From positions 930,001-994,000 of the forward strand of contig NZ_JACORU010000001.1 in NCBI RefSeq assembly GCF_014297445.1: DNA of 64,000 nt, read 5' to 3'. The notes beneath the pieces were generated by a model. That model searched no databases, was not told the DNA's origin, and saw only the letters and a list, made by a program, of their open reading frames with translations. The position numbers and the translations under genes were made by a program. The stretch comes from Ramlibacter albus (GTDB taxonomy: Bacteria; Pseudomonadota; Gammaproteobacteria; Burkholderiales; Burkholderiaceae_C). Below are positions 1-56,303 of this stretch, one piece after another; within the stretch, counting starts at the first letter, position 1; each line of letters begins with the position of its first letter.

Positions 1-208
1 AGCGGCCGACGTACGCGAGGCAGGCGCCGAGGTCGTTGAGCGCGCGCAGCTCGCCCGGCTCGCGCTCCAGCACTTCGCGCAGCTTCTCCATCGAGCGCGT
101 GACGTCGCCCGCCTCGCGCAGCTTCACTGCTTCGACGAGCATGTTCTCGCGCCATTGCGCGGCCCGCTTCGACTTGGGCACGAAGCGGCGGAGGAGGTTG
201 GCCAGCAT
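1..208 (-). CDS. TPR-repeat protein, N-terminal part (cut by window edge)
   Basis: Only the first 69 codons are present; the gene continues beyond base 1. It begins MLANLLRRFVPKSKR, a basic N-terminus without a signal peptide. A helical stretch follows (LREAGDVTRSMEKLREVLER, then ALNDLGACLAYVG) with the spacing and small/aromatic pattern of tetratricopeptide repeats. By analogy with the TPR protein at 16406-18379, whose N-terminus is also short and basic, the missing part could carry a glycosyltransferase-like domain, but nothing here proves it. It is separated from the next gene by about 55 bases and is read in the same direction. TPR assignment is fairly safe; function unknown. Confidence 0.6.
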   Translation of the reverse strand, partial: MLANLLRRFVPKSKRAAQWRENMLVEAVKLREAGDVTRSMEKLREVLEREPGELRALNDLGACLAYVGR

Positions 209-264
209 CGGGCGCTTCCGGGGGGTCGGGACCGCGGCACCATTGCCGCGGCCGGATCATAAGG

Positions 265-612
265 TTACCGGCCGCCCCCGCCCGGGGCGGCGGGGCGTTT
301 CGCGGCGGCCTTCGACATCTCCATCACGAGGCCCTCGGTCGCGACGTCGATGAACTCGTCGGAATAACCGGCATTGCGCAGCTCCCACTTGAAGTGGTTG
401 GCGAATGCCGCGCGCCGGAAGAACCCCAGGCGGCGCTCGGCCTGGTAGTCGGACGCCGTCTCGTACGTCTTCTCGAGCTGGCGCGTGATGCGGTTGACGG
501 TGGCGCCCTTGCCCGCGCCGGCCACGCTGTCGGGCGGCAGGGACGCCTTGAGCTTCGTCACCAGGCCGGCAACGAACTCCTTTTCGGCCTCGGTACTCAG
601 GAACTTCAGCAT
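265..612 (-). CDS. Hypothetical protein, 115 aa, downstream of the pilins
   Basis: I do not recognise the family. The ATG at 612 is preferred because a GGAAG ribosome site lies upstream and the longer frame would run back through the pilin terminator. The protein (MLKFLSTEAEKEF...) is soluble-looking, has no membrane segment or signal, is rich in Lys, Glu and Arg, and ends in a flexible Ala/Pro/Gly tail. The centre has an aromatic/basic patch (RRLGFFRRAAFANHFKW). A rho-independent terminator at 631-655 separates it from the last pilin, so it either depends on read-through or has its own promoter. A role connected with the pili is only a guess from position. Confidence 0.6.
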   Translation of the reverse strand: MLKFLSTEAEKEFVAGLVTKLKASLPPDSVAGAGKGATVNRITRQLEKTYETASDYQAERRLGFFRRAAFANHFKWELRNAGYSDEFIDVATEGLVMEMSKAAAKRPAAPGGGGR

Positions 613-630
613 CGCGCGACTTCCGGAATG

Positions 631-655
631 AAAAGCCCCCGGCTCGCGGGGGCTT
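631..655 (-). terminator. Rho-independent terminator after pilin copy 1
   Basis: Read on the minus strand: an 8-bp perfect stem (AAGCCCCC/GGGGGCTT), a 7-base loop, and a run of four U beginning within the stem end. It starts about 20 bases after the pilin stop codon at 677, the usual place for an intrinsic terminator. Confidence 0.8.
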
Positions 656-676
656 GCTTTCGGGACCGCAGCGAAA

Positions 677-1090
677 TCAGCCGCGGCACGTACCCGGCAG
701 GTACTTGACCGGCGAACCCTGGCAGGTCCACGTGAGCGTACCGCCACTGGCCGTGGGCGTCAAAGTGACCGTGACGGCCGCACCGACGGAGGCGGAGTTG
801 CCGCTGACGGTGACGACGCCGTTCGCCGCGACGGAAGCCGCGGACACCTTGCCGACGGGCGCGACGGAGCAGTCGGCCGAGACGTTGCTCGGGATCGTGC
901 CGCCGTTGGACTGGGTCAGCTCGGTCACGCACGTGCGCGCGCCGGAGGCGGAAAGCATCAGCTCCGAGACCTTGGCGCGGATCGTGTAGTCCTGGTAAGC
1001 CGGCAGGGCCACCGCCGCCAGGATGCCGATGATCGCGACCACGATCATCAGTTCGATCAGGGTGAAGCCCTGTTGCAGTTGACGCTTCAT
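677..1090 (-). CDS. pilA: Type IV major pilin, tandem copy 1 (promoter-distal)
   Basis: Structural subunit of a type IVa pilus. The ATG at 1090 gives a short leader MKRQLQQG followed by FTLIEL: the prepilin peptidase site with Gly at -1, Phe at +1 (later methylated) and Glu at +5. A hydrophobic helix follows (residues 9-32, [17 protein letters not shown]). The globular part has four cysteines (near residues 55, 75, 124 and 135 by estimate) that could form the C-terminal disulfide loop. At 137 aa it has normal pilin length. By my reading it differs from copy 2 at only five positions (for example SVAPVG against SIAAVG). It has its own 189-bp upstream region and its own terminator, so it may be expressed separately from copies 2 and 3. 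Confidence 0.95.
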
Positions 1091-1211
1091 TACACCTCCA
1101 GAAATGATTGGAACTCTCGACAAGCAATTCACATGCCTTTGGCCGCTGCGGGCTTTCGCGTTGAAAAACCCGCACTGGCCGCCGTCATCGTGACGAATGC
1201 GGCGAATGGCG

Positions 1212-1238
1212 TGACATTCCTGTCATTCAACAATGACA
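1212..1238. repeat. Overlapping inverted repeats in the pilin 2-pilin 1 gap
   Basis: Two perfect inverted repeats share an arm: TGACATTCCTGTCA (1212-1225, 5-bp arms) and TGTCATTCAACAATGACA (1221-1238, 7-bp arms with a CAAC loop). They cannot fold at the same time. They lie directly beside the terminator of pilin 2 and about 120 bases upstream of pilin 1. They could be an operator for a dimeric regulator, competing hairpins, or a secondary terminator structure. Confidence 0.5.
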
Positions 1239-1260
1239 AAGGCCTCCGCGAGGAGGCCTT
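1239..1260 (-). terminator. Rho-independent terminator after pilin copy 2
   Basis: On the minus strand: a 9-bp perfect stem AAGGCCTCC/GGAGGCCTT with a 4-base loop, ending in TTTG. It begins about 20 bases after the stop codon at 1280. The U tract is short, but position and stem are convincing. Confidence 0.75.
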
Positions 1261-1279
1261 GCCATGTCACAGCGGACGA

Positions 1280-1693
1280 TCAGCCGCGGCAGGTACCCGG
1301 CAGGTACTTCACGGGCGAGCCCTGGCAGGTCCAGGTCAGCGTGCCGCCGCTGGCGGTGGGGGTCAGCGTCACCGTGACGGCCGCGCCGACGGAGGCCGAG
1401 TTGCCGCTCACTGTCACGATGCCGGCCGCGTCCACGGAAGCCGCGGACACCTTGCCGACGGCCGCGATGGAGCAGTCGGCCGACACGTTGCTGGGGATCG
1501 TGCCGCCGTTGGACTGGGTCAGCTCAGTGACGCAGGTGCGAGCGCCGGAGGCCGACAGCATCAGCTCCGACACTTTCGCGCGGATCGTGTAGTCCTGGTA
1601 GGCGGGCAGCGCGACGGCCGCCAGGATGCCGATGATCGCGACGACGATCATCAGTTCGATGAGGGTGAAGCCCTGTTGTAATTGACGTTTCAT
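1280..1693 (-). CDS. pilA: Type IV major pilin, tandem copy 2
   Basis: Same architecture as its neighbours: an 8-residue leader ending in Gly, FTLIEL processing site with Glu+5, a hydrophobic N-terminal helix and four cysteines in the globular domain; 137 aa. ATG at 1693 is preceded by a purine-rich site (GAGAAAAC). It lies 72 bases after copy 3 with no clear terminator between, so 3 and 2 are probably co-transcribed, and transcription should end at the hairpin at 1239-1260. It is nearly identical to copy 1 (five differences counted), which suggests recent duplication or gene conversion. Confidence 0.95.
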
Positions 1694-1765
1694 GTTTTCT
1701 CCGAGTGGGTGGAAAGGAAGCCCTCGACGACGACTGAGAGCGCTGGGGCCGGGCCGATCGTTCGA

Positions 1766-2179
1766 TCAGCCGCGGCAACTGCCGGGGAGGTACTTCAGGG
1801 GGGTTCCGGCGCACGTCCAGGTGAGCGTGCCGCCCGAAGCCGCGGGCACGAGCGTCACGGTGACCGCCGCGCCGACCGATGCCGAGTTGCCGACGATCGT
1901 CACGACGCCGTTGGCACCGACGTCCGCCGAGGACACCTTGCCGACCGCGGCGATGGAGCAGTCGGCCGAGACGTTGCTCGGGATGATGCCGCCGTTGGAT
2001 TGCGTGAGCTCGGTGATGCAGGTGCGTGCGCCGCTGGCCGCGAGCATCAGCTCGGAGACCTTGGCGCGGATCGTGTAGTCCTGGTACGCGGGCAGGGCGA
2101 CGGCCGCCAGGATACCGATGATGGCCACGACGATCATCAGTTCGATGAGCGTGAAGCCCTGCTGCAGTTGACGCTTCAT
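1766..2179 (-). CDS. pilA: Type IV major pilin, tandem copy 3 (promoter-proximal)
   Basis: Prepilin with leader MKRQLQQG, processing motif FTLIEL and hydrophobic helix identical to the other two copies; 137 aa. It is the most diverged copy in the surface-exposed part (for example [18 protein letters not shown], and the end [16 protein letters not shown]), while the four cysteines are kept. A GGAGG ribosome site precedes the ATG at 2179. The 190-bp region upstream, between this gene and the ATPase gene, contains a plausible sigma-70 promoter (2268-2295), so it probably heads the pilin transcript rather than being read only from the ATPase gene. Confidence 0.95.
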
Positions 2180-2267
2180 GGAACCTCCGTTCTGTTGAAG
2201 AAGCGATGCGTTACCGCAATCGGCATGCCATCGCCGTTCGCCGGCCCGCCGGCGCGACAGGCGGATT

Positions 2268-2295
2268 CGTATAGTGCAAACGGATTAAAACACAA
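2268..2295 (-). promoter_or_regulatory. Possible sigma-70 promoter of the pilin cluster
   Basis: On the minus strand: TTGTGT (2290-2295), a 16-base spacer, TATACG (2268-2273), about 90 bases upstream of the pilin 3 start. This is the most AT-rich patch in the local sequence. I looked for the GG-N10-GC sigma-54 pattern common upstream of pilA elsewhere and did not find correct spacing. Confidence 0.4.
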
Positions 2296-2369
2296 CTCAA
2301 CAGGCGCAAGGATGAGCTGCCGAGGCCGCGGCCCCGACAAACTTGTCAACCACTCTTTGCGCTATGTGA

Positions 2370-4796
2370 CTACTTGATGCAGACGGAGCGGACCTGCTTG
2401 ATGTCGGTCGTGCCCATCATGATCTTCTCCATGCCGTCCATCTTCAGCGTGCGCATGCCGCTGCCGACAGCCGCCACGAAGATCTCGGCCACGCGGGCGC
2501 GCTCCTGGATCAGCTTCTTGACTTCGTCCGTGCCGATCAGGAGCTCGTGCAGGCCGACCCGGCCCTTGTAGCCGGTCTTGTTGCACTTGTCGCAGCCGAC
2601 CGCCCGGTAGAACTTCAGGCGGCCGTTGTCGCCATAGTGCTTCAGCCAGGTCTCGTACAGCTTCTTGGCCTCGCCTGCGTAGTCGGCCTTCCACGCGGCG
2701 GTGTGCCGCAGGTCCTCGGCGTACTCGGCGATGAAGGTCTTGATCTCCTCCTGCTCGGGGTAGTAGCCCTCCTTGCAGTCGCACAGGCGCTTGGCCAGGC
2801 GCTGCGCCAGGATGCCCAGCAGCGCGTCCGCGAAGTTGAACGGGTCCATGCCCATGTCCAGCAGGCGGATGATCGATTCCGGCGCGGAGTTCGTGTGCAG
2901 CGTGGAGAACACGAGGTGGCCCGTGAGCGACGCCTCGATGCCCATCGACACCGTTTCCTTGTCGCGCGACTCGCCCACCATGATGATGTCCGGGTCGGCA
3001 CGCAGGAAGGCGCGCATCACGAGGGCGAAATCGATGCCCGCCTTCTTGTTCACCTGCACCTGCCGCAGGCCCTTCTGCGTGATTTCGACCGGGTCCTCGG
3101 CGGTCCAGATCTTGGTGTCCGGCGTGTTGAGGAACTTCAGGATCGAGTGCAGCGTGGTCGTCTTGCCGGAGCCCGTGGGACCGCAGACGTAGAACAGGCC
3201 GTAGGGCTTGCTGACCGTCTTCTCGAGGTTCTCCTTGTTGTGCGGCGTGAGGCCCAGCTTCTCCATCGGGATCGGCTCGCCGGCCGCCAGGATACGCATG
3301 ACCACGTCCTCGACGCCGCCTGCCGACGGGATGGTGGCCACCCGCAGCTCGATGTCCAGCGGGCCGAACTTCTTGAACTTGATCTTGCCGTCCTGGGGCT
3401 TGCGCTTCTCGGAGATGTCGAGGTCGCACATGATCTTCAGGCGCGTGACCAGCGCCTGGCGGAAGTGCGCCGGCACCTCGACGAAGTTCTGCAACGAGCC
3501 GTCGATGCGCAGGCGGATGCCGGTCTTGAGCTTGCCGGGCATCGGCTCGATATGGATGTCCGACGCGCGCAGGTTGTACGCGTCGACGATGATCTTGTTG
3601 ACGAACTTGACCAGCTCGTTGTCGGACGCGGCGGAGGCGGCGTCGGTCTCCTCGGTGCTGCCCTCGTCGTCGACCGGCGCATTCAGGTCCGCGAGCAGCT
3701 CGTCCATCGACTGGCCGCCGTCGGCCTCGGACACGCCCCACAGCTGCGCGAGCGTCTCGTCGAATTCGGTCTGCGTCGTGACGCGGTACGCGAACTTGCC
3801 GATGCGCGGGAAGATCTGCGGCACCACCCGCGAGCCGCGCACGGCCTCGGGGTCCGTGCACATCACGATCAGCCCCTCGGGCCCCTCCTCCAGCGGCATC
3901 CAGCCCTGCTCGGTCACGAACTCGCGCTTGAGGTTGCCCTGCAGGGCCTCGACCTTGATGCGCCCCGGGTTGAAGGGCTCGTAGGGCACGCCGAAGAACT
4001 TCGCGAGCGACGGGCCGATCTGCGCCGGCCGGATGCCGAAGTCGGCCATCAGCACGTACTCGACCGGCTTGGCCTCCTCGCGCGCCTTCTGCACCGCGGT
4101 GGCGAGTTCCTCGGCGGTGATCACGCCGTTCTGCAGCAGGCCGTCGTACTTGGAGGACTTGCGCCGCGCGCCCTCCTCCGCCTTCTGCATGCGCTGGCGG
4201 ATGGCGGTGGCGAGCGTCTGGCAAAGCTGCTGCGCGCCGTCGATCTCCAGGTCGCCGAAGGGCACGTCGCTCTTGTTGTTGATGACCTGCAGCACGCCGT
4301 GGAGCACGTCGCCGTCGAGGATCGGCATCACGAGCATCTGCTTCGTGCGGTAGCCGGAGCGCTTGTCGACCTCCTTGAGGAACGCGAGCGACGGGTGGAT
4401 GCGCTTGAGCGCCTCGTCGTCGTAGACGTCGGCGATGTTCACCATCTGCTTGGAGAAGGCAACGTAGCCGGCGATGCTCTGCGCGCTGATCGGCAGCTTC
4501 AGGTCCTTCGCGGTGTTCAGGCCGGTCTTGAGCTTCGAGACGATCGCCGTGCGGTCCTCGTTGATCGCGTACAACGTCAGGCGATCGGCGTTGAACAGCT
4601 TGCAGATGTCGGCGCTGGCGTCCAGCATGATCTGGTCGACGTTGTCGGTCGCGTGGACCTTGGTCGTGACCTGCTGCAGCTGCTTGTAGAAAAGGGCCTC
4701 GAACGTGACGCCCCGCTTCTCGGGCGGCAGCATCTGCGAGTCGAAGAACGCCTGCGAATCGCGTTCGTGGGTGTTGGGCTTGAGGACTGCACTCAT
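2370..4796 (-). CDS. GAF-domain GspE/PilB-type secretion ATPase
   Basis: Hexameric AAA+ motor ATPase of the type II secretion/type IV pilus family, 808 aa, so much longer than usual PilB (about 570). Residues ~40-190 form a GAF-like sensor domain; ~215-350 resemble the GspE N-terminal (MshEN) domain; ~410-720 are the ATPase. Walker A is GPTGSGKTTT near residue 542 and Walker B DPDIIMVGESRD near 604. The zinc-site cysteines are CDC near 670 and CDKC near 736, as in extension ATPases. The start MSAVLKPNTHERDS is used; its ATG overlaps the stop of the phosphodiesterase gene by 4 bases (ATGA), showing translational coupling. Beside three pilins it most likely drives pilus extension, with the GAF domain adding ligand control (inference). 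Confidence 0.9.
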   Translation of the reverse strand: MSAVLKPNTHERDSQAFFDSQMLPPEKRGVTFEALFYKQLQQVTTKVHATDNVDQIMLDASADICKLFNADRLTLYAINEDRTAIVSKLKTGLNTAKDLKLPISAQSIAGYVAFSKQMVNIADVYDDEALKRIHPSLAFLKEVDKRSGYRTKQMLVMPILDGDVLHGVLQVINNKSDVPFGDLEIDGAQQLCQTLATAIRQRMQKAEEGARRKSSKYDGLLQNGVITAEELATAVQKAREEAKPVEYVLMADFGIRPAQIGPSLAKFFGVPYEPFNPGRIKVEALQGNLKREFVTEQGWMPLEEGPEGLIVMCTDPEAVRGSRVVPQIFPRIGKFAYRVTTQTEFDETLAQLWGVSEADGGQSMDELLADLNAPVDDEGSTEETDAASAASDNELVKFVNKIIVDAYNLRASDIHIEPMPGKLKTGIRLRIDGSLQNFVEVPAHFRQALVTRLKIMCDLDISEKRKPQDGKIKFKKFGPLDIELRVATIPSAGGVEDVVMRILAAGEPIPMEKLGLTPHNKENLEKTVSKPYGLFYVCGPTGSGKTTTLHSILKFLNTPDTKIWTAEDPVEITQKGLRQVQVNKKAGIDFALVMRAFLRADPDIIMVGESRDKETVSMGIEASLTGHLVFSTLHTNSAPESIIRLLDMGMDPFNFADALLGILAQRLAKRLCDCKEGYYPEQEEIKTFIAEYAEDLRHTAAWKADYAGEAKKLYETWLKHYGDNGRLKFYRAVGCDKCNKTGYKGRVGLHELLIGTDEVKKLIQERARVAEIFVAAVGSGMRTLKMDGMEKIMMGTTDIKQVRSVCIK

Positions 4797-5584
4797 AGTT
4801 CGAACTCCTGTCCCGCGCGCAGCCAGCGGATGTCATGCACGACATTCGGCCCGAACGGCTGCGTCTGGTCGAACTTCTGGATCTCGGTCATGATCAGCTC
4901 GGTCTCCGCCGGCTTGGTGTGCGTGATGAAGATCGGGAAGCGCTTGCCCTTGTCGATCATGTCCAGCTCCTCGGCCAGCGCATGGGGCGACAGGTGCAGG
5001 CTGCGGCGCGCGAGGTCCTTCTCCCGGTTGGAGAAGGCCGTCTCGATCACCAGCGCCGCGACGTCCAGCTGGTTCAGGCGGCGCCAGAAAGCGGGGTTGC
5101 GCTCGGTGTCGCCGGTGAACACCCACGCGCCGTGCGTCACGTCCACCGCGTAGCCGCAGGCCGGCACCGTGTGCACGGCCGGCAGCACCTCGATCTTCTT
5201 GCCGTTGATGTCCAGCACCTGCCCCACGTGGATCTCGTGGAAGCTCACGAAGGGCGCCTCGGGCGTGGGGATGCGGCTGAAGTCCGGCCAGATCACGTTG
5301 TTGAAGACGTGCGCCTTGATGGCGGCCAGCGTGCCGGGCAGCGCGTGGATCTTCACCGGCTCGGTGAGCATGGAGGCGATGCTGTCGACCATCAGCGGCA
5401 GCGCCGCCACGTGGTCCAGGTGCGAATGCGTCAGCAGCACGTGCTTGATGCGCATCATCTCCTCGAGCGTGAGGTCGCCCACGCCGGTGCCCGCGTCGAT
5501 GAGGACGTCGCCGTCGATCAGGAACGACGTGGTCCGGCACTCTTTCGCGATCGCGCCGGAGCAGCCCAGCACCCGCACCTTCAT
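4793..5584 (-). CDS. Metallo-beta-lactamase-fold class II cyclic-nucleotide phosphodiesterase
   Basis: Cytoplasmic metal-dependent hydrolase, 263 aa, with the motif THSHLDH at residues 52-58 and a later histidine (AVHTVPACGYAV) and aspartate (FTGDTERN) expected for a two-metal site. Overall it resembles class II 3',5'-cyclic-nucleotide phosphodiesterases (CpdP/yeast PDE1 type), which open cAMP to 5'-AMP. No signal peptide. Its ATG at 5584 lies 7 bases after the adenylate cyclase stop, and its stop overlaps the ATPase start, so production and removal of cAMP are encoded in one transcript. The family covers other MBL hydrolases; the cyclase next door strongly favours the cAMP reading. Confidence 0.82.
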   Translation of the reverse strand: MKVRVLGCSGAIAKECRTTSFLIDGDVLIDAGTGVGDLTLEEMMRIKHVLLTHSHLDHVAALPLMVDSIASMLTEPVKIHALPGTLAAIKAHVFNNVIWPDFSRIPTPEAPFVSFHEIHVGQVLDINGKKIEVLPAVHTVPACGYAVDVTHGAWVFTGDTERNPAFWRRLNQLDVAALVIETAFSNREKDLARRSLHLSPHALAEELDMIDKGKRFPIFITHTKPAETELIMTEIQKFDQTQPFGPNVVHDIRWLRAGQEFEL

Positions 5585-5591
5585 CAGGTCC

Positions 5592-7841
5592 TCACTTGGT
5601 CTCGAAGTTGGTCGCGCCGTCCCACTCCGGGTCGAACGGCAGCAGCCGCATCGAGGCTACACGTTCGGAGTACAGCTCGTAAAGGTATTTTTTTGCATTC
5701 ATCCGCTGCAGGTTGATCAGCAGCACGTCGCACTGGTCCCAGTCCTGCGAGCGGTACGCCTTCAGGAAGGTCGCCCAGGTCTTGAGCTCCTCCTGCGTCC
5801 CCTTCTCGAGCCGCTCGAGCGGCGCCACCGGCCAGAAGATCGCCACGGCTTCCTTCTTGCCCTTGACGCGAACGCGGTCAAGCTCCTGCCACGCGAAATC
5901 GTTGGCGAGCTTGCGGGTGGATTCGCTCACCACGATGTCAACCCCGTACACCTTGGACAGGCCCTCGAGCCGCGAGCCGAGGTTCACGGCGTCGCCGATC
6001 ACGGTGTAGGCACGGCGGATTTCCGAGCCCATGTCGCCCACGCACATCGGGCCGGTGTTCAGGCCGACGCCGACACCGATCTCGGGTAAACCCTTAGCGC
6101 GGTGCTCCTCGTTGATCTTGCGCACCGCGTTGGACATCTCCAGCGAGGTCTTCACTGCCAGGTGCGGGTGGTTCGGCAGCTCGACGGGCGCGCCCCAGAA
6201 GGCCATCACGCAATCGCCCATGTACTTGTCGATCGTGCCGCGGTTGCCGCGGATGATGTCCGTGAGGCGGTTGAACACGTTGTTGAGCAGCGCCTGCAGC
6301 TGCGTCGGGTCCATCTTCTCCGACATGTTGGTGAAGCCGCGCATGTCGCAGAACATCACCGTCAGCTCCTTGCTGGTGGCCGTCATGCTGTAGCTGACGG
6401 GGTCCTTGGCCATCTCGTCCACCAGCTCCGGCGGCACGTAGGTGCCGAACAGGTGCGCCAGCTCGCGCTTGCTGCGGCTTTCCACGAAATAGCCGTAGCC
6501 CATGTTGAGCGCGAAAGCCGTGATCGTCATGACGAGGCCGGCCGCGAGCGGCAGCACGAGCCCCAGGTCCGCATAGAGCCAGAAGTTCAGCACGACGACC
6601 ACGGCGATCACCGACACGCTCAGGATCACCGCGCGCGTGGCCGACACCAGCGGCAGGCCGAAGGCGAGCGTCAGGCCCGCGAGCAGCAGGATGACCACGT
6701 CGTAGCCGAGCGCGTAGTCGGGCCGCACGGTGATCTTGTTGTCGAGGAAGCCCGAGATCAGGTTGGCGTGAACCTCCACGCCCGGGTACACCTCGCCGGC
6801 GGGCGTGGCCCGCAGGTCCTGCAGGCCCGGCGCCGTCGTGCCCACCAGGACGATCTTGCCCTTGAGCGACTCGGCGGGCACCTTGCCGTTGACGAGGTCC
6901 CCCGCCGAGATGTACTTGAACGAGCCTCCCTTCGGCCCGCCCGGGCCGCGGAAGGGCGAAAGCGAGATCACGCCCTCGGCAACGGGAATCGCGAGCGACT
7001 TGTCGCCCAGCCGCAGGCGGATGCTGTCCAGCCCCTGGTAGTTGCGCCCCACCCACTTTTCCTGCGGGAAGCCCGGCTCGACGCGCGGCGAGCCCATGAG
7101 GATGCGGAACATCGCCAGGGCCAGCGATTCGTAGTAGTTGTCCTTGTATTCCGCCACCAGCGGCACGGAGCGCACCAGGCCGTCGGGGTCGGGCACCGGG
7201 TTGAAGAAGCCCGCGATCGGCGCCGCCTTCGCGAGCTGCTCGATGTTGGAGCCGTAGCCGTTCCAGGACGTGAACTTGATCGGCCGCCCCTGCAGCGTCG
7301 AGCGGTCCATCACCGGCGCGGGCAGCGCGCCGCTGGTGTGGCCCTCGCGATCACTGGTGAAGTAGTAGCCCATGACGATGGGCCGCCCCTGCAGCGACTT
7401 GGCAAACAGCGCGTCGTAATCGAGCGAGGCCTGCAGCAGGTTCAGCTTCTCGCCGAACGCCGGGTTGTCCTTCAGCTCGTTGCCCGCGAGCTGGCGCAGG
7501 CGCTTGAGGCCGGAGCTGTCGTCCGGCTCGGCGAACACGATGTCGAAGCCGACGACGGCCACTTTCTGGCGGTCGAACAGCTCGTTGACCATCTCCGCCA
7601 TGCGGTTGCGGCTCCAGGGCCAGCGGCCGACCTCGGCGAGGCTCTTTTCGTCGATGTCCACGATGACGATGCGATCGTCGAGCGTGCGCGGCATCGTGGC
7701 GCGCAGGCGCGCGTCGTAGATGATGTCGTCCAGCCGCTGCAGCACGCCGATCTTCATCACGCCGACGGCGTGAAGCAGCGCCAGCACCAGCGGGACCAGC
7801 GTGACCGCAATGCGGGACCAATGCCTGGAAAAAAGCCCCAT
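5592..7841 (-). CDS. CHASE2-domain class III adenylate cyclase
   Basis: Membrane receptor cyclase, 749 aa: one N-terminal membrane helix (residues ~10-30), an extracytoplasmic CHASE2 sensor (~35-345), a cluster of three membrane helices (~370-450), then a class III cyclase domain (~480-665). Metal-binding aspartates are visible in FCDMRGFT (~498) and KYMGD (~543). The Lys of IDKYMGD and the Thr of YTVIGD are the pair expected for ATP rather than GTP, and AVNLGSRLE supplies the transition-state Asn and Arg. It should make cAMP in response to a periplasmic signal. The gene lies between the FHA gene (59 bases away) and the phosphodiesterase (7 bases). A short C-terminal extension of about 80 residues is unassigned. 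Confidence 0.92.
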   Translation of the reverse strand: MGLFSRHWSRIAVTLVPLVLALLHAVGVMKIGVLQRLDDIIYDARLRATMPRTLDDRIVIVDIDEKSLAEVGRWPWSRNRMAEMVNELFDRQKVAVVGFDIVFAEPDDSSGLKRLRQLAGNELKDNPAFGEKLNLLQASLDYDALFAKSLQGRPIVMGYYFTSDREGHTSGALPAPVMDRSTLQGRPIKFTSWNGYGSNIEQLAKAAPIAGFFNPVPDPDGLVRSVPLVAEYKDNYYESLALAMFRILMGSPRVEPGFPQEKWVGRNYQGLDSIRLRLGDKSLAIPVAEGVISLSPFRGPGGPKGGSFKYISAGDLVNGKVPAESLKGKIVLVGTTAPGLQDLRATPAGEVYPGVEVHANLISGFLDNKITVRPDYALGYDVVILLLAGLTLAFGLPLVSATRAVILSVSVIAVVVVLNFWLYADLGLVLPLAAGLVMTITAFALNMGYGYFVESRSKRELAHLFGTYVPPELVDEMAKDPVSYSMTATSKELTVMFCDMRGFTNMSEKMDPTQLQALLNNVFNRLTDIIRGNRGTIDKYMGDCVMAFWGAPVELPNHPHLAVKTSLEMSNAVRKINEEHRAKGLPEIGVGVGLNTGPMCVGDMGSEIRRAYTVIGDAVNLGSRLEGLSKVYGVDIVVSESTRKLANDFAWQELDRVRVKGKKEAVAIFWPVAPLERLEKGTQEELKTWATFLKAYRSQDWDQCDVLLINLQRMNAKKYLYELYSERVASMRLLPFDPEWDGATNFETK

Positions 7842-7900
7842 GCTCCCCCGTCGTTATTTGACCGCCGCGCCTGCCGGCAAGCGCGCCGGGATGCCGGCCG

Positions 7901-8602
7901 CTACGCCTGGACGAACTGCATCTGCGTGCCGGCCAGCTCCAGCAGGTCGCCGTTCTTGAGCGTCACCGGCTCCGCACCGATCGCCGCTCCGTTGAGCGTC
8001 GGCTTGTTGGCCCCCTCGACATGCGCCACCACGAAACCGTGGGGCCGCTTGGTGATGGCGGCGACCGCCACGCCCGGCTTGCCGATCGTGGTGACCACCT
8101 TCACCAGTGCCACCTCGCGGCCCGCGGCCGCGCCGGACAGCACCTTGATGCTGGCATTGATGTTCGGCAGGACCTCGGCCGCCGCCGCAGCGGCGCCCGC
8201 GGCGGGTGCGGCCGCAGCGCCGCCCGCGACACCACCGGCCTGGGCGGCCGGCTTGGGCACCGGCGGGACCATGCCCGCCTTCATGATCATCGTCTTCTCG
8301 AACGTCGGCCCGGGCGCCTCGTTGATGTACTTGATCTTGTACTTGCCGATCTCGACGGTGTCGTTGTTCTGCAACAACTGCTTCTTCACCGCCTTGCCGT
8401 TGACGTACGTGCCGTTGGTGCTGTTCAAGTCTTCGAGGTAAACCTCGTTGCCCGTCATCTGCAGTACCGCGTGCTCGCCGGAGACGGCGAGGTTGTCGAT
8501 CACGATGTCGTTATAAGGCCGCCGCCCGAGTGTCGTGCGGTCCTTCGTGAGCTGTACTTCCTTGATGACAACACCGTCGATCGAGACGATCATTTTCGGC
8601 AT
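7901..8602 (-). CDS. FHA-domain protein, two FHA-like modules
   Basis: Phosphothreonine-binding reader protein, 233 aa. Residues ~20-95 are a clear FHA domain with G26-R27, S41-x-x-H44 and N60-x-x-N63-G64, the residues that contact phosphopeptides. An Ala/Pro/Gly linker (~105-145) follows. The C-terminal ~85 residues (GREVALVKVVTTIGKPG ... NGDLLELAGTQMQFV) look like a second, degenerate FHA fold in which the arginine is missing (TIGKPG), so it may not bind phosphate. No signal or membrane helix. It sits between the phosphatase and the cyclase, and probably recognises threonines phosphorylated by the kinase at 9437-12265, possibly linking it to the cyclase or pilus motor (inference). Confidence 0.9.
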   Translation of the reverse strand: MPKMIVSIDGVVIKEVQLTKDRTTLGRRPYNDIVIDNLAVSGEHAVLQMTGNEVYLEDLNSTNGTYVNGKAVKKQLLQNNDTVEIGKYKIKYINEAPGPTFEKTMIMKAGMVPPVPKPAAQAGGVAGGAAAAPAAGAAAAAAEVLPNINASIKVLSGAAAGREVALVKVVTTIGKPGVAVAAITKRPHGFVVAHVEGANKPTLNGAAIGAEPVTLKNGDLLELAGTQMQFVQA

Positions 8603-8648
8603 GGTCGGACTCCTGTGTGATTCGTATCCCGCGAGCTAGTACCAAAGG

Positions 8649-9434
8649 CTATTGTCCCAGCAATCGGGAAATCAAGCCCTTCTTTTTGGAGCCGGTGTTG
8701 GCCTGAGCCAGCAGCACCGAGATGTTGTCGCGGCCCCCGTTTGCATTGGCGGCATCCACCAACTGCACGACTTTCTGATCCAGCGGCCCCTCCCCCATGA
8801 GGATCTTCGCGATGGAGGGGTCGTCCAGCATGTCCGACAAACCGTCGGAGCACATCAGGTAAATATCGCCCGTCTCCACCCTGTGTTCGTTCACTTCCAG
8901 CAGCACCGCGTCCTCCACGCCGAGCGCGCGCGTGACCAGGTTCTTGTTGGTCGACGTGGCGGCCTGCTCCGGCGTGATCAGGCCGGCGTCCATCTGCTCC
9001 TGCAGCAGCGAATGGTCCTTGGTGATCTGTGCAAGCTCCGTGCCGCGCAGCCGGTAGCAGCGCGAGTCGCCGATGTGGCCCAGGAGCAGCTTGCCGTCCT
9101 GGAACACGCCGACCACGAGCGTGGTGCCCATGCCGCTGTACTGCGGGTTGGAGTTGGCGGCGTTGAAGATCGAGCGGTTGGCGTTGTCGACGCAGATCTC
9201 CATGGCGCGGCGCACCTCGCGCGCATTGGCCGAGCGGCCCGCCTGCGCGAGCCAGCGCCCGAGCTCGGACTTGATGAACGTGGTGGCCATCCCGCTGGCG
9301 ATCTCGCCGGCGTTGTAGCCCCCCATTCCGTCCGCCAGGATCGCCAGCCGCGTCGGCTCGTCGAAAGTGACGGAGTCCTCGTTGTTCTCGCGCGCGAGAC
9401 CGGGATCGGTTCGCAGGCAAAACTCGTAGTTCAT
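8649..9434 (-). CDS. PP2C-type Ser/Thr protein phosphatase
   Basis: Metal-dependent phosphatase of the PPM/PP2C family, 261 aa, cytoplasmic. Motifs in order: ARENNEDS (acidic metal ligand D20), LADGMGG (D35-G-M-G-G), GDSRCYRL, then SDGLSDML near 195, and GRDNISVLL near 240. All metal aspartates are kept, so it should be active. Length is that of a catalytic domain with a short tail. It begins 2 bases after the stop of the kinase gene, the usual pairing of a bacterial Hanks-type kinase with its opposing phosphatase. It should reverse phosphorylation of the kinase itself and of shared substrates. Confidence 0.93.
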   Translation of the reverse strand: MNYEFCLRTDPGLARENNEDSVTFDEPTRLAILADGMGGYNAGEIASGMATTFIKSELGRWLAQAGRSANAREVRRAMEICVDNANRSIFNAANSNPQYSGMGTTLVVGVFQDGKLLLGHIGDSRCYRLRGTELAQITKDHSLLQEQMDAGLITPEQAATSTNKNLVTRALGVEDAVLLEVNEHRVETGDIYLMCSDGLSDMLDDPSIAKILMGEGPLDQKVVQLVDAANANGGRDNISVLLAQANTGSKKKGLISRLLGQ

Positions 9435-9436
9435 AG

Positions 9437-12265
9437 TCAGCGGGTCGACCCTCCAGATCCGTCCGTGGCCTGCATCTTTTGCGTCGAATCATAGCTGGGC
9501 GCGGCGTCTGCGGGTGGGCCGGGCATGATGACGGTCTTCTCACTGTCGCCGCCGCCCGACGCCGGCGCGGGCGCGGGCGAGGTGAATGCGACGGTGCGCT
9601 CGGAGGCCGCGGGCGCTTCCTGCGCGGCGGGCGCCGGGGCGGTTGCGATCGGCTGCATCGGCGCCGCCGCGGGTGCGGGCATCGGCGCGCCTGTCAGCTC
9701 CGCCATCGCGGCCTTCAGGTCGGCGGCGAACTGGTCGCCGTCCTGGTAGCGCACCTCGGGCTTCTTCGCGAGGGACTTCGCCACCACCTCCGCGATGCGC
9801 GGCGTGAGTTCCTTGCGGATGATGCGGATGTCCGGCGCCTCCTCGTTGGCGATCTTGTACATCAGCTCCGCCATCGAGTCGCCGCGGAACGGCAGCACGC
9901 CGGCGAGCATCTGGAACAGCATCACGCCCAGCGAGTACAGGTCGGAGCGGCCGTCCACCTTCTTGCCGGCGATCTGCTCGGGCGACATGAAGCTGGGCGT
10001 GCCCAGCACCAGGCCCGTCTTGGTCTTGCTCGAGTCGGTGATGCGCGCGATGCCGAAGTCGGTGACCTTCACCGTGTCGGTATCGAGCTCGTACATGATG
10101 TTCGCCGGCTTGATGTCCCGGTGAACGACGTTCGCGCGGTGCGCGTATGCGAGAGCCTCGGCGACGCGGGCGCAGATCGACAGCACCTTGGGGATGGGCA
10201 GCAGTGCGCCGTCCTTGCAGTAGTCCACCAGGTCGCGGCCCTTGAGGAACTCCATGGCGATGTAGGCCAGGTCGTGCTCCTCGCCCGCGTCGAAGATCGT
10301 GACGATGTTCTGGTGCTGCAGGCGGCCGGCCGTCTCGGCCTCGCGGAAGAAGCGCTCGCGCGCGTCGTTCAGCTCCTCGCCCTCGAACTCGTTGGACAGC
10401 GCCATGGTCTTGATCGCCACCACGCGGCCGATCTTCGGGTCCTTGCCCAGGTACACCACGCCCATCGCGCCCTTGCCAAGCTCCTTTTCCACCTGGTAGC
10501 GGCCCAGCATCGGCTTCTCGACGCCGCCGCCATCGAGCAGCATCGTGCCGCCGGGGTGCGCGCCGCCGCCGCCGAGGATGACGGTCTCCGACAGGTTCTT
10601 CGCGCGATTGAGCTTGTCCTGCAGGCCCTTGTAGTTCTTGTCCAGCGTGGCCATGTACTCGTACACGGCCTGGCACTTGTTGAACTGGCGCTTGCGCTCG
10701 AAGTCCAGCGCGAGGTTGTTCAGGTTGTCCATCAGCGCGTCGCTGTGCGGCACGCGGCGGAAGCGGTCGAACGCCATGTCCAGCTGGCCCTGGCCCTGCA
10801 GCGCCAGGCCCATCATGCGGTTGGTTTCGGCGGACTCCTCGTCCGACTTCACCTTGCCGGCCTCGGTCATGAGGAAGCGCTTGGTGGTGAGCGCGAGGTG
10901 GCCGATGACAAGCAGCATCGCGGGGAACACCAGCCGCATCCACAGCGCGCTGGTGGACAGCATCACGTACTCGGCGATGAGCAGCGCGACGAAGATGCCT
11001 GCCGTCACGGCAGCCGACATGCCGGCCGTGAGGCGCGGCAGCCCGGCGATCAGGTAGCCGGCCACCACCAGCACGATGGCCAGCGTCGCCATCCAGCCCC
11101 AGCTGGGGTCCACGATGAAGTGCTCGCTCAGGATGCTGGAGGTGACGTGCGCGAGGTATTGCGCAGGCGCCAGCGAGTAGCCGCCCGGCGCGGGGAACAG
11201 CGTGCCGACGCCCGCCGCGGTGGCGCCGATCAGCACGATCTTGTCCGTGTACTTGCTCGCCGGGATCTTGCCGGAGAGCACGTCGTAGAACGAATCTTCC
11301 GCGAACGGCATCTTGCCGCCCTGCGGCGGGTAGAACTGCGGCCGCATCTGCGCGAACTCGTCGGTCTTCACGCGCAGTTTGCCGATCTGCACCGACTCGC
11401 CGGGGTTCAGCCGGATGTCGCCGGGGCCGAGGTTGAGGCTGCGCGCCGCCGCGAGCAGGGCCATCGACGGCACGGCCTTGCCGTAGTAGTTCATGAGCAG
11501 CGGCTCGGTGCGCACCGCGCCGTCCACGTCGGTCAGCTGGTTCAGGTGCCCGACGCCGGCGGCGGCGTTGCCGATGCTGTCGATCGGGTACTGGCCGCGC
11601 AGCACGTTGATGGAGAAGCCGCCCTTCTCGTCGACCGCGCTCTTGGCGACCGCGGCCGGCAGCGGCTTGTCGGCCTTGCCCTGCGGGTCGCCGATGACGA
11701 ACACGGAAGGCACCAGCACGTTGCCGGCCTTGGCCATACTGGCAGCAAGCTTGGCGTCGGTGTCGAGCGTGGCCTCGGCATCGGCCATCAGCTTGGCGAG
11801 CGCCTCGTTCTGCGGCGCGGCGGCGGGCGCTTCAGCGGCAGGCGCGGGCGCGGCGGCGCCGCTTGCAGCGGCGGCGGGCGCGGCTGCCACGGGCGCCGGC
11901 ATGCCCAGCGCCTCGCGGATCTTGCGGATGAAGACGAGCCCGCGGTCGGTCTGCGGCTCGAAGAAGAACACCGTGTTGACGATGGTCTTGGCCTTGGCTT
12001 CGGAGAGCTTGTCGATGAGCTGCGCATGCACGTCGCGCGGCCAGGGCCAGCGGCCGATGTTGGCGACGCTCTGGTCGTCGATGGCGATCACCGCGATGCG
12101 ATTGGACGGCTGGCGCGACGTCGCCGTGCTGGCGAAGTCGTAATAGCGGCGCTCCATCGTCTCGAAGACGTCGGTTGCACGGTGCAGCACGATGACCGCA
12201 AGGATCACCGCGACTGCGACGAACCAATCCTTGCGCCAGAACTGACCGCGCTTGCCAGAAGCCAT
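9437..12265 (-). CDS. CHASE2-domain Hanks-type Ser/Thr protein kinase
   Basis: Transmembrane receptor kinase, 942 aa from the ATG at 12265, chosen because GGGGGAA precedes it; an upstream ATG at 12307 lacks such a site. Order: N-terminal membrane helix (~10-28), CHASE2 sensor (~35-385) interrupted by an Ala/Pro-rich insert (~115-160), three membrane helices (~395-465), a cytoplasmic helical stretch resembling TPR-like repeats, then the kinase domain (~590-860). Kinase motifs: GKGAMGVV glycine loop, VAIKT lysine (~618), HRDIKPAN catalytic loop (~717), DFGIAR, and APD-type substrate region; all complete. An Ala/Pro tail with possible phosphothreonines (SERTVAFTSP, SEKTVIMPG) follows and could bind the FHA protein. 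It probably heads the signalling operon. Confidence 0.93.
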   Translation of the reverse strand: MASGKRGQFWRKDWFVAVAVILAVIVLHRATDVFETMERRYYDFASTATSRQPSNRIAVIAIDDQSVANIGRWPWPRDVHAQLIDKLSEAKAKTIVNTVFFFEPQTDRGLVFIRKIREALGMPAPVAAAPAAAASGAAAPAPAAEAPAAAPQNEALAKLMADAEATLDTDAKLAASMAKAGNVLVPSVFVIGDPQGKADKPLPAAVAKSAVDEKGGFSINVLRGQYPIDSIGNAAAGVGHLNQLTDVDGAVRTEPLLMNYYGKAVPSMALLAAARSLNLGPGDIRLNPGESVQIGKLRVKTDEFAQMRPQFYPPQGGKMPFAEDSFYDVLSGKIPASKYTDKIVLIGATAAGVGTLFPAPGGYSLAPAQYLAHVTSSILSEHFIVDPSWGWMATLAIVLVVAGYLIAGLPRLTAGMSAAVTAGIFVALLIAEYVMLSTSALWMRLVFPAMLLVIGHLALTTKRFLMTEAGKVKSDEESAETNRMMGLALQGQGQLDMAFDRFRRVPHSDALMDNLNNLALDFERKRQFNKCQAVYEYMATLDKNYKGLQDKLNRAKNLSETVILGGGGAHPGGTMLLDGGGVEKPMLGRYQVEKELGKGAMGVVYLGKDPKIGRVVAIKTMALSNEFEGEELNDARERFFREAETAGRLQHQNIVTIFDAGEEHDLAYIAMEFLKGRDLVDYCKDGALLPIPKVLSICARVAEALAYAHRANVVHRDIKPANIMYELDTDTVKVTDFGIARITDSSKTKTGLVLGTPSFMSPEQIAGKKVDGRSDLYSLGVMLFQMLAGVLPFRGDSMAELMYKIANEEAPDIRIIRKELTPRIAEVVAKSLAKKPEVRYQDGDQFAADLKAAMAELTGAPMPAPAAAPMQPIATAPAPAAQEAPAASERTVAFTSPAPAPASGGGDSEKTVIMPGPPADAAPSYDSTQKMQATDGSGGSTR

Positions 12266-12317
12266 GCCGATTCCCCCGTCCCGTATGTCGAAACGGCCCC
12301 CGCACAAACGACACGGA

Positions 12318-12341
12318 CGCCTTCCGCTGCTACGGAAGGCG
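12318..12341 (-). other. Strong hairpin in the leader of the CHASE2 kinase gene
   Basis: A 9-bp perfect inverted repeat (CGCCTTCCG/CGGAAGGCG) with a 6-base loop, about 55 bases upstream of the kinase ATG. There is no U tract, so it is not a normal terminator. It could affect translation or mRNA stability, or serve as an operator. Confidence 0.4.
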
Positions 12342-12435
12342 CCCGGGGGACCCCGTGGGGCACGTTAACAGACGCAACACGAGGGGACAAGGGAGTTTCT
12401 CACGCCCCCTGTACAAGTTGTTGCAAATGCGCACG

Positions 12436-12465
12436 GGGCGCGCATTCGCGCCCGAAAGCGCTTTC
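12436..12465 (-). other. Hairpin and palindrome at the 3' end of the TerC gene
   Basis: A 7-bp perfect stem GGGCGCG/CGCGCCC with a 4-base loop (12436-12453) abuts the 12-bp palindrome GAAAGCGCTTTC (12454-12465), which overlaps the TerC stop codon. Without a U run it is not a classic intrinsic terminator, but it could stabilise the mRNA 3' end or assist termination. Confidence 0.35.
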
Positions 12466-13156
12466 AGGTGGCGTGTTCTTCGCGCGCAGCCTTGGCACCG
12501 AGCATCTTGCCGACGCCGATGACGATGACGGCGCCCAGGGCCGCGGCTGCGTAGTGCACCCAGCCATTGCCTTCGACCCAGGGCTTGAGCGCGACGTCGC
12601 TCGCGATCGTCTCGCCGCCCACCCAGCCGATCAGGCCGGCGCCGAGCGTGACGATGATGGGGAAGCGCTCCATCAGCTTGATCATCAGCGTGCTGCCGAA
12701 GATCACCAGCGGGATGCTGATGGCCAGGCCCAGGATCAGCAGCAGCATGCTGCCCTTGGCCGCGGCGGCCACCGCGATCACGTTGTCCAGGCTCATGACG
12801 AGGTCGGCGATCAGGATCGTGCGCACGGCCGCCATGAGGTTGCCGTACTCCTTCGTCTCGCCTTCCTCTTCCTCTTCCTCGTCGGCCATCAGCTGCACGC
12901 CGATCCACAGCAGCAGCAGGCCGCCGACGATCTGCAGGTAGGACAGCGCGAGCAGTTGTGCCGCCACCACGGTCAGCACGATCCGCAGCACGACGGCGGC
13001 GCCGGAGCCCCACAGGATGGCCTGCTTCTGCTGGTGCGGGGGCAGCGAACGGGCGGCCAGGGCGATCACCACCGCGTTGTCGCCCGACAGGATGATGTTG
13101 ATCCAGATGATCTTGACGAGGCCGATCCAGAAATCGGCGGTCGAGAGGAATTCCAT
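12464..13156 (-). CDS. TerC-family integral membrane protein
   Basis: Polytopic inner-membrane protein of 230 aa with about seven hydrophobic helices. The two repeated signatures of the family are visible: ILSGDNAVVIALAA near residue 25 and LVMSLDNVIAVAAAA near 125, with conserved Asp-Asn pairs thought to bind metal. An acidic cytoplasmic loop (EEEEEEGETKEYG, ~92-105) separates the halves. Relatives (TerC, Alx, YkoY) are linked to manganese export and tellurite resistance; the substrate here cannot be told. It is alone in its direction between sucCD and the kinase gene. I checked the 131-base leader for a yybP-ykoY-like riboswitch and did not recognise one. Confidence 0.9.
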   Translation of the reverse strand: MEFLSTADFWIGLVKIIWINIILSGDNAVVIALAARSLPPHQQKQAILWGSGAAVVLRIVLTVVAAQLLALSYLQIVGGLLLLWIGVQLMADEEEEEEGETKEYGNLMAAVRTILIADLVMSLDNVIAVAAAAKGSMLLLILGLAISIPLVIFGSTLMIKLMERFPIIVTLGAGLIGWVGGETIASDVALKPWVEGNGWVHYAAAALGAVIVIGVGKMLGAKAAREEHAT

Positions 13157-13287
13157 GACGAGGTTGCTCCTGCTGTTGTATCTAACGACGAAGCGCCCGA
13201 AACCTGGCGTTCCGAGCGCTTCTCGTTCTTGTTTGCGCAGCCGCCCAGTTTAGCGAGCGGGCCCCGGGGGCGGGACCGTAATTCTGC

Positions 13288-14181
13288 TTACAGCAAGGCT
13301 TTCAACAGCTTCGCCATCTCCGACGGGTTGCGGGTGACCTTGAAGCCGCACTCTTCCATGACGGCCAGCTTGGCGTCGGCCGTGTCCGCGCCGCCGCTGA
13401 TCAGCGCGCCGGCATGGCCCATGCGCTTGCCGGGGGGCGCCGTGACGCCGGCGATGAAGCCGACCACGGGCTTCTTCATGTGGTCCTTGCACCAGCGGGC
13501 GGCGTCCGCCTCGTCGGGGCCGCCGATCTCGCCGATCATGATGACGGCGTCGGTGTCGGGGTCGTCGTTGAAGGCCTTCATCACGTCGATGTGCTTCAGG
13601 CCGTTGATCGGGTCGCCGCCGATGCCCACGGCCGAGGACTGGCCCAGGCCGATCTCGGTGAGCTGCGCGACCGCTTCATAGGTGAGGGTGCCCGAGCGCG
13701 ACACCACGCCGATGCGGCCCTTGCGGTGGATGTGGCCGGGCATGATGCCGATCTTGATCTCGTCGGGCGTGATGAGGCCGGGGCAGTTGGGGCCCAGCAG
13801 CAGCGTCTTCTTGCCGCCCTTGGCCTCCTTCTCCTTCATCTTGTTGCGCACGATGAGCATGTCCTTGACCGGGATGCCCTCGGTGATGCAGATCGCGAGG
13901 TCGAGGTCGGCCTCGACCGCTTCCCAGATCGCGTCGGCGGCGCCCGCCGGAGGCACGTAGATGACCGACACGGTGGCGCCGGTCTGCTGCCTGGCTTCCT
14001 TCACCGACGCGTAGATCGGGATGTCAAAGATCTTTTCGCCGGCCTTCTTGGGGTTCACGCCCGCGACGAAGCAGTTCTTGCCGTTCGCGTATTCCTGGCA
14101 CTTCTCGGTGTGGAACTGGCCGGTCTTGCCCGTGATGCCCTGGGTGATGACCTTGGTGTCCTTGTTGATGTAGATCGACAT
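13288..14181 (-). CDS. sucD: Succinyl-CoA ligase (ADP-forming), alpha subunit
   Basis: TCA-cycle enzyme subunit, 297 aa, the normal length. It forms succinate and ATP from succinyl-CoA together with SucB/SucC. The N-terminal CoA-binding Rossmann domain begins with [16 protein letters not shown]; the phosphohistidine loop [11 protein letters not shown] lies near residue 255; the LGPNCPG motif near 125 is typical of the ligase-CoA domain. It begins 9 bases after sucC and closes the two-gene operon. Confidence 0.98.
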
Positions 14182-14190
14182 GTCTGTTCC

Positions 14191-15354
<1,164 letters not shown>

Positions 15355-15458
15355 GGTCTCTCTCGAGGATCTGAACGGGGGGAGTGCGGCTGGGACAAGG
15401 CGCGCGGGCCCTGCGCGGCGCAGCGTGCAACTGTATCATGCTGCAACGCACCAATCTT

Positions 15459-15484
15459 CCGCCTGCCTTACAGTAGGCGGTAAG
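15459..15484. other. Overlapping inverted repeats between sucC and argC
   Basis: CCGCCT (15459-15464) pairs with AGGCGG (15475-15480), and CTTAC (15467-15471) pairs with GTAAG (15480-15484); the two hairpins exclude each other. They lie 24-49 bases before the argC ATG in a divergent promoter region. They may be regulatory, or chance. Confidence 0.3.
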
Positions 15485-15507
15485 CAATTTCCACAGGAAA
15501 AACCGCC

Positions 15508-52754: not shown

Positions 52755-56303
<3,549 letters not shown>

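Follow-up and report, generated by a model that had tools for sequence, protein, structure and literature searches.

Nine genes on the minus strand of a Ramlibacter albus genome (~6.1 Mb) place two signalling systems, one of protein phosphorylation and one of cyclic AMP (cAMP), next to a pilus-type motor ATPase and three pilins. They lie in a 64,000-nucleotide stretch, here called the window, at positions 930001–994000 of contig NZ_JACORU010000001.1. An earlier note on this DNA had read the run, at 677–12265, as kinase, PP2C phosphatase, FHA protein, cyclase, phosphodiesterase (PDE), ATPase and pilins, with the PDE and ATPase genes overlapping at ATGA. All nine genes are there, running from 12265 down to 677 as open reading frames with Pfam or NCBIfam matches, and the overlap is real: four nucleotides, at the junction GAACTATGAGTGC. 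The features are these:

9437..12265, minus strand: CHASE2 receptor Ser/Thr kinase (Pfam CHASE2 and Pkinase; catalytic motifs)
8649..9434, minus strand: PP2C Ser/Thr phosphatase of the Stp1/IreP family (NF033484, 248.1 bits against a cut-off of 230)
7901..8602, minus strand: FHA protein (Pfam FHA), with the phosphosite-like motif FEKTM (Thr104) in a linker that follows this domain
5592..7841, minus strand: CHASE2 receptor adenylate cyclase, class III (Pfam; invariant residues; best solved matches)
4793..5584, minus strand: class II-type 3',5'-cyclic-nucleotide phosphodiesterase, metallo-beta-lactamase fold (PDEase_II, 51.1 bits against a cut-off of 23.7)
2370..4796, minus strand: GAF-MshEN-PilB/GspE-type ATPase, probable second pilus extension motor (Pfam, NCBIfam, solved relatives)
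4176..4697, minus strand: GAF domain of this motor, candidate cAMP receptor (best phmmer match CyaB2, 1ykd; contact residues)
1766..2179, minus strand: type IV pilin 1 (Pfam Pilin)
1280..1693, minus strand: type IV pilin 2 (Pfam Pilin)
677..1090, minus strand: type IV pilin 3 (Pfam Pilin; 96% protein identity to pilin 2)
12314..12345, minus strand: terminator-like hairpin of 14 pairs, between a TerC-like gene and the kinase gene (consensus scan)
1260-1239, minus strand: terminator-like hairpin after pilin 2 (consensus scan)

The genes are closely packed. From kinase through PP2C, FHA, cyclase, PDE and ATPase to pilin 1 the gaps are 2, 46, 59, 7, −4 and 190 nt, the last of these with 58% G+C. 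Patterns for active-site motifs were found in all six of the window proteins tested.

Gene order and content across the Burkholderiales

Whether the arrangement extends beyond close strains was asked of 399 sampled Burkholderiales genomes from 159 genera. A match to the ATPase at E 1e-165 or better occurs in 153 of the genomes and 65 of the genera. Sixty loci, one per genus except for genome G380 with two, were fetched as an order set; the few genera missing from it had a match that was partial or near a contig end. Gene content was counted in the 55 loci with at least 9 kb of upstream flank: PP2C and FHA genes are each present in 48, the PDE gene in 45, and kinase and cyclase genes each in 32. 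Four loci have none of the signalling genes, one locus has one, and 50 have two or more, and in all 50 of these the gene order is identical, between genera whose proteins share roughly 40–60% identity. The window's own family tells the same story, order being kept in 9/9 loci with sufficient flank among 14 fetched. So do 80 named loci: 57 have the flank, six of these have no signalling gene and four have one, and the order is kept in 47/47 of the others. (Four organisms are counted twice among the loci, as L049/L159, L070/L190, L107/L171 and L118/L201.) Loci L190 and L171, from Chitinimonas viridis and Parachitinimonas caeni, each have the full run from kinase to motor, and their fetched flanks contain no recognisable pilin. 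Because the order is kept in other genera, chance arrangement is excluded. It holds across many Burkholderiales families, which clears the first ground for refutation named in the earlier note, an order confined to close strains, and the cassette is almost certainly real and under selection.

Around this fixed order the content varies. A gene for a GAF-HD-GYP protein lies downstream in 44 of 58 order-set loci and in none of 11 from the window's own family, and, where 2.5 kb or more of downstream sequence is available (58 order-set loci), 27 loci have a recognisable pilin 0.17–4.2 kb after the ATPase. A gene combining a cyclic-nucleotide (cNMP)-binding domain with a rhodanese domain separates the PDE gene from that of the ATPase in 12 of the 55 loci. 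It occurs in 30 of the 399 genomes, adjoins the ATPase by coordinates in 21 of these 30, and is accompanied by a local cyclase in 12/12 order-set and 8/9 named loci; a search of the window's own genome at E 1e-40 found no match to it. In locus L073 (10853-11929) and relatives from several families, the two domains are fused upstream of the motor and the rhodanese domain carries a CQSGRRS loop. Locus L066 has other insertions between PDE and motor (8945-11936), a FecR-domain protein and a TPR/outer-membrane-barrel-like protein. Four loci from Massilia and Pseudoduganella (L211, L212, L214 and L217) have a motor orthologue with no signalling gene upstream at all.

The ATPase proves not to be the fixed partner of the signalling set that it had been supposed to be. 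At E 1e-28 the FHA gene is found in 198 of the 399 genomes, 136 with the ATPase and 62 without a match to it; the reverse, ATPase without FHA gene, occurs in 17. At least one of the 62, G229, is a contig-end artefact. Twenty of the 62 loci, mostly those of high FHA identity, were fetched, and contig ends truncate two of them (the ATPase of L241 starts at such an end). The 18 uncut loci keep PP2C-FHA in 16 cases and a recognisable pilin in 10; locus L242 reads kinase-PP2C-FHA-cyclase-PDE-HD-GYP-pilin, with no ATPase, and in L254 and L256 the FHA gene is the only one of the signalling genes present. In the window's own family, 12 ATPase-less genomes were searched and the sucCD neighbourhood fetched for 11: PP2C-FHA is kept in 10 of the 11, alongside different combinations of kinase, cyclase and PDE, and within the fetched stretch a recognisable pilin comes next in 8 of these 10. 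Since PP2C and FHA persist at the pilin locus without the ATPase, a motor-centred picture must be widened, and the phosphorylation switch has a closer tie to the pilin locus than to the motor.

Presence and absence of the parts were compared over tree-independent pairs on a FastTree tree of the 121 ATPases with at least 9 kb upstream. The cyclase differs in 16 such pairs; the kinase follows it in 9.1 of them and runs counter to it in 0.4 (median p 0.008; 0.004 in the reverse test). For PP2C and FHA the agreement is 6.9 of 9 pairs, with none opposite (p 0.016; 0.03 when presence is defined more strictly). Between cyclase and PP2C this test gives no significant link (median p 0.6). Kinase and cyclase genes are not adjacent but flank PP2C-FHA, and both are missing from 24 of the 121 loci that keep PP2C and FHA; because the genes between them remain, their joint absence is not the deletion of one block. 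Kinase and cyclase tend to be gained or lost together, and their CHASE2 parts are related (26% identity, E 4e-29).

The motor and the cyclic AMP limb

The window ATPase has its nearest named relatives, at 78–86% identity, in metagenome-assembled genomes of Burkholderiales and Ramlibacter. It belongs to the PilB/GspE superfamily of motors: it has a T2SSE domain (Pfam, 374.5 bits) with Walker A, Walker B and His box, and the patterns for these recur in 148, 146 and 148 of 149 ATPases (motif patterns were counted only in relatives with at least 80% coverage, whereas counts of single ATPase residues, below, use 152 of 155 sequences, from 154 loci and the window). The curated models place it in none of the named branches. 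It falls short of canonical PilB (TIGR02538, 465.9 against a cut-off of 675.65 bits), of GspE (434.7 against 630.25) and of TfpB (NF053534, 384.1 against 850), and its best solved relatives are PilB and PilF. The canonical PilB of this genome is encoded elsewhere (821.4 bits), adjoining a protein whose best models, PilC and GspF, both score below cut-off; in all the genome has 12 T2SSE matches, five of them PilB/GspE-type ATPases above 370 bits. The window ATPase is probably a second pilus extension motor beside PilB. An extra motor of this sort is known from Acinetobacter baylyi, whose TfpB extends pili alongside PilB (PMC8213720), and, going by the part of that account available, the two are alike in being phylogenetically distinct, PilB-like, and unlinked to pilC in a PilB-bearing genome. 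They differ in that the available description of TfpB mentions neither a GAF domain nor a signalling operon, while the window motor, which reaches only 384 of the 850 bits of the TfpB model, has a GAF domain and lies beside signalling genes.

Ahead of the ATPase proper stands an MshEN domain (Pfam, 23.8 bits; cut-off 23.1), the kind of domain through which some motors are regulated by cyclic di-GMP (c-di-GMP; PMC5013675, seen in part). We sought its 24-residue motif in strict and relaxed forms and found it in 0/152 motors with either, and c-di-GMP sensing by MshEN was set aside as a candidate; the four other ATPases of the genome also scored 0, so the pattern had no positive control. What stands in front instead is a GAF domain.

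Among solved structures this GAF domain best matches the cAMP-binding GAF domains of CyaB2 from Anabaena (1ykd), by profile and by single sequence. With phmmer, domain for domain, the better CyaB2 GAF scores 60.0 bits and the next protein 36.5. The available part of the CyaB2 literature names R291, T293, I308, D356 and N359 as cAMP contacts in GAFb (PMC4411481), and these were mapped to the motor through HMMER alignments. Equivalents of R291, T293 and D356, three of the five, are kept in 151, 149 and 152 of 152 motors; the I308 position is hydrophobic in all 152, and the N359 position is T (112) or S (40), T being found there in the aligned PDE5 GAF as well. The CyaB2 domains are fused to a cyclase, this one to a pilus ATPase. 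By sequence the motor's GAF domain looks to be of the cNMP-binding kind.

That it binds cAMP is plausible, although we would put this somewhat below an even chance, for several facts pull the other way. The lead of CyaB2 comes in part from the summing of two GAF copies; per domain, the profile scores 70.2 bits for CyaB2 and 67.8 for 4mcw, likewise a GAF domain, from an HD-GYP protein. Taken alone, the GAF domain of the HD-GYP protein that belongs to the cassette matches CyaB2 at 70.6 bits (and PDE5 at 72.4 bits over two stretches), though without an Arg at the R291 position, so a CyaB2 match is not special to the motor. These two observations weigh somewhat against cAMP binding, a direct gate and the best explanation given below, and slightly in favour of its two main rivals. 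The NKFDE motif, described in PMC11977230 and said to be kept in most characterised cNMP GAF domains, is incomplete in the motor: N and F are present in 152/152, the K position is mostly N, and D is lost or variable. Finally, decay of the pocket where no cyclase is at hand was looked for and not seen, the pocket being constant in motors with (72) and without (49) a local cyclase, which disfavours a strictly private cAMP loop.

The cyclase itself is sound. Class III cyclases use a pair of metal-binding Asp residues, a Lys and a Thr that select ATP, and an Asn and an Arg. The corresponding D499, D543, K539, T613, N620 and R624 are invariant among 12 aligned sequences, the patterns recur in 74–85 of 86 wider relatives, and the best solved matches are adenylate cyclases.

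The PDE is less clear-cut. It scores above the PDEase_II cut-off, and an HxHLDH-type metal motif is present in 113 of 118 sequences. Its profile finds yeast PDE1 first in the PDB (4ojv, E 1.3e-12), then a lactamase-fold hydrolase (1.5e-11) and RNase Z (5.8e-10), and it shares an H-FN--IWPD stretch with yeast PDE1; it misses the equivalog NF041851 for cyclic-nucleotide-degrading phosphodiesterases (28.3 against a cut-off of 400). By a narrow margin it is best matched as a class II PDE. Because 15 of 55 loci have the PDE gene with no cyclase, the enzyme may clear cAMP made elsewhere, or act on another substrate. Several relatives have the gene abutting that of the motor.

The phosphorylation limb and the edges of the locus

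The kinase resembles PASTA kinases in its kinase domain only, its sensor being CHASE2 rather than PASTA, and it falls below the PASTA model (NF033483, 314.3 against 450 bits). The phosphatase passes the Stp1/IreP threshold. Two threonine motifs stand out from otherwise unconserved linkers. One is SETVIL, before the kinase domain, where Thr563 is T in 71 of 76 kinases. The other is FEKTM in the FHA protein, as the window reads, where Thr104 is T in 95 of 107. Of 70 FHA proteins with a kinase at the locus 69 keep the Thr104 motif, against 15 of 26 without one (Fisher p 9e-7). In FHA phosphoswitches of the OdhI/GarA type the phosphorylated Thr precedes the FHA domain. The window protein is likewise small, and its conserved, phosphosite-like Thr also falls outside that domain, but here the Thr follows it, and the OdhI model NF041660 gives 65 of the required 200 bits. 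The conserved motifs fit an FHA phosphoswitch, with the two threonines as putative phosphorylation sites. The ExT[VMI]-type phosphomotif shared by kinase and FHA protein occurs in 0/149 ATPases. It does occur in the cyclase (68/86), where we discount it; the match probably reflects no more than overlap with ELTVMF, the opening strand of the cyclase domain.

Loss of the kinase from the locus does not always mean loss from the genome: of 15 genomes, 7 have a match at E 1e-60. Two of the seven are near full-length at 55–56% identity (one with an internal stop), one is a kinase-domain relative at 57%, and the rest match in the kinase domain at 39–48%; no cyclase adjoins the first three. Three genomes of one family (L227, L228 and L229) lack a kinase beside the pilins and have a kinase relative elsewhere, ~2 kb upstream of sucD. 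The ATPase-less loci L237-L240 of the window's own family match in the kinase domain only, with no CHASE2 and no cyclase matched at the loci, and L258 has the kinase domain alone together with a cyclase.

The genome has four PF00114 pilin matches, three of them at this locus. Between pilins 2 and 3 identity is 96% in protein and 89% in DNA; 39 of the 47 differences fall at third codon positions, as under purifying selection.

Before the kinase on the minus strand come sucC-sucD and then a TerC-like gene (sucC named by Pfam, the other two by reading their translations). The hairpin at 12345-12314 has the most pairs of the 10 sites found by consensus scan (7.3 are expected in shuffled sequence) and is a possible upstream edge of the cassette transcript. 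On account of this hairpin and the 190-nt gap, the block of signalling genes and ATPase may begin with the kinase, and a separate promoter may serve the pilins. A scan of 200-13000 gave no sigma-70-type site on the minus strand. Further scans found no sigma-54 promoter upstream of the pilins with at most one mismatch allowed (sigma-54-type matches across the window number 3, with 2.06 expected), and no Rfam match at gathering threshold in 1-16000; nor did Pfam find a transcription-factor domain in the ten window proteins scanned. After the pilins, at 265-606 on the minus strand, lies a gene for ~113 aa with no Pfam or NCBIfam match; at several further loci, weak relatives of it (27–39% identity) lie close to the ATPase or the pilins. 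Much farther off, at 52755-56303 on the same strand, is a large hybrid histidine kinase with GAF, several PAS, receiver and Hpt domains.

What the cassette may do

Gene content and order, active-site motifs, conservation, the co-variation of kinase and cyclase, the threonine motifs and the likeness of the GAF domain to the cNMP-binding kind can be read from the sequences themselves. That the cassette acts on pili we regard as probable. As a whole it is best explained, we think, as a conserved type IV pilus control cassette, a view that we hold tentatively, at a little under an even chance. The CHASE2 kinase and CHASE2 cyclase would probably respond to one external cue or to linked ones. Autophosphorylation of the kinase would fall near Thr563, and the kinase would also phosphorylate Thr104 of the FHA protein; PP2C would reverse this, giving a phospho-reader that is either on or off. 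The cyclase would make cAMP, and the PDE, translationally coupled to the motor, would clear it locally. cAMP would bind the GAF domain of the motor, and this second PilB-like ATPase would then be switched onto the core machine and extend fibres of the adjacent pilins. In other lineages a cNMP-binding/rhodanese or GAF-HD-GYP protein would be added, or the motor would be absent.

The earlier note went further and had phosphorylation and cAMP jointly gate extension. Part of this stands up: the cyclase is sound, the PDE is best matched to class II, the motor bears a cNMP-kind GAF domain, and kinase and cyclase co-vary. The gating step is our deduction, the phosphomotif is missing from the 149 ATPases, and joint gating looks less likely than not. 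We are similarly doubtful of the general form of the idea, a post-translational two-signal gate in the Burkholderiales in which the motor is switched directly by cAMP through a CyaB2-like GAF domain, in one operon with the cyclase, a coupled PDE, a kinase-phosphatase-FHA switch and twin CHASE2 receptors. Several facts besides those about the GAF domain tell against a control cassette of the kind outlined. Class III cyclases are matched 21 times in the same genome; with that number, and with 26 matches for cNMP-binding domains, 'closed' is too strong a word for the 'closed signalling set' proposed earlier. General lactamase models score as high as PDEase_II on the PDE or higher, and the RNase Z model scores higher (60.1 bits), yet below its own cut-off of 292.95. 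The link of cyclase and PDE is borderline (6.4 of 16 pairs; p 0.03, or 0.06 with the stricter rule; reverse 0.06 and 0.125). PP2C-FHA occur with the kinase and no cyclase in 10 of 121 loci, and another 10 are mixed in other ways between the PP2C/FHA limb and the cyclase, among them 8 that have the cyclase without the kinase. The association of Thr104 with the kinase loses significance once the tree is taken into account (median p 0.22), and the motor is dispensable, to judge from the 62 genomes that have an FHA gene and no match to it.

The strongest alternative, which we nonetheless consider unlikely, is that the cassette controls pili through gene expression: cAMP would act on a cNMP-binding regulator, the FHA protein on a transcription or assembly factor, and the GAF domain of the motor would sense something else. 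There are 26 cNMP-binding matches in the genome to choose from, and published links between cAMP and pili, so far as the available portions of the sources go, run through the regulators Vfr or SYCRP. The persistence of PP2C-FHA without the motor, and the 190-nt gap before the pilins, are also in keeping with it. It fits poorly with a GAF domain of the cNMP-binding kind on the motor itself, with a PDE gene that overlaps the motor gene here and abuts it in several relatives, and with the lack of a transcription-factor domain in the ten window proteins scanned.

Less likely still is that the two limbs are separate, the phosphorylation limb being the real switch of the pilus locus, and cyclase, PDE and GAF-motor an optional addition with its own cue, the signals never meeting on the motor. 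PP2C and FHA do co-vary and are the most retained of the genes (48 of 55); they occur without kinase and cyclase in 24 of 121 loci, and no significant link joins cyclase to PP2C. Kinase and cyclase, one from each limb, nevertheless tend to be gained or lost together and share their type of CHASE2 sensor. It is very improbable that the ATPase drives a machine of the type II secretion kind rather than pili: its scores are below the cut-offs for PilB and GspE alike, but a pilin follows it in 27 of 58 loci, directly so in the window, and its best solved relatives are PilB and PilF. That neighbours of unrelated function merely travel together is scarcely credible, for while shared descent alone can preserve order for a time, and the cassette often lies beside sucD and the TerC-like gene (for which we know of no pilus role), its order is kept in 50/50 loci from different genera, against sucD upstream in 15 of 55, and its genes co-vary after control for the tree.

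The components of a pilus control cassette such as we favour are of known kinds; the arrangement, and the GAF-motor, are a new variation on these. Published cAMP control of pili is transcriptional in the portions of the literature available to us, and direct nucleotide control of a pilus motor is by c-di-GMP. In Pseudomonas, cAMP made by a cyclase regulates type IV pili through Vfr in the Pil-Chp/CyaB/Vfr system, according to the part of PMC11656802 consulted; the link between cyclase-made cAMP and type IV pili is common to both, but here cyclase and PDE genes sit beside that of a GAF-bearing motor. The Arn network of Sulfolobus (PMC4307647) likewise combines Ser/Thr kinases, a phosphatase and an FHA protein in control of a type IV pilus-like filament; it differs in being archaeal, in acting on expression and, in the portion of the account available, in being described without a cAMP limb. 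Likeness to the c-di-GMP-regulated motors ends with the MshEN domain. In a search judged by titles and abstract openings, with subscription papers mostly outside its scope—weak evidence, in other words—we found, among the matches listed, no literature on this gene set and no direct cAMP gate on pilus extension. One of the papers, PMC10581220, names CHASE2, type IV pilus and adenylate cyclase.

If the favoured explanation is right, a widespread motor with a cNMP-kind GAF domain and a cyclase and PDE of its own would amount to a direct cAMP gate on pilus extension, and the phosphorylation limb would explain what a Ser/Thr kinase-PP2C-FHA set, common in the Burkholderiales, is for. The conserved cassette suggests a little-known way by which these bacteria decide when to extend their fibres.

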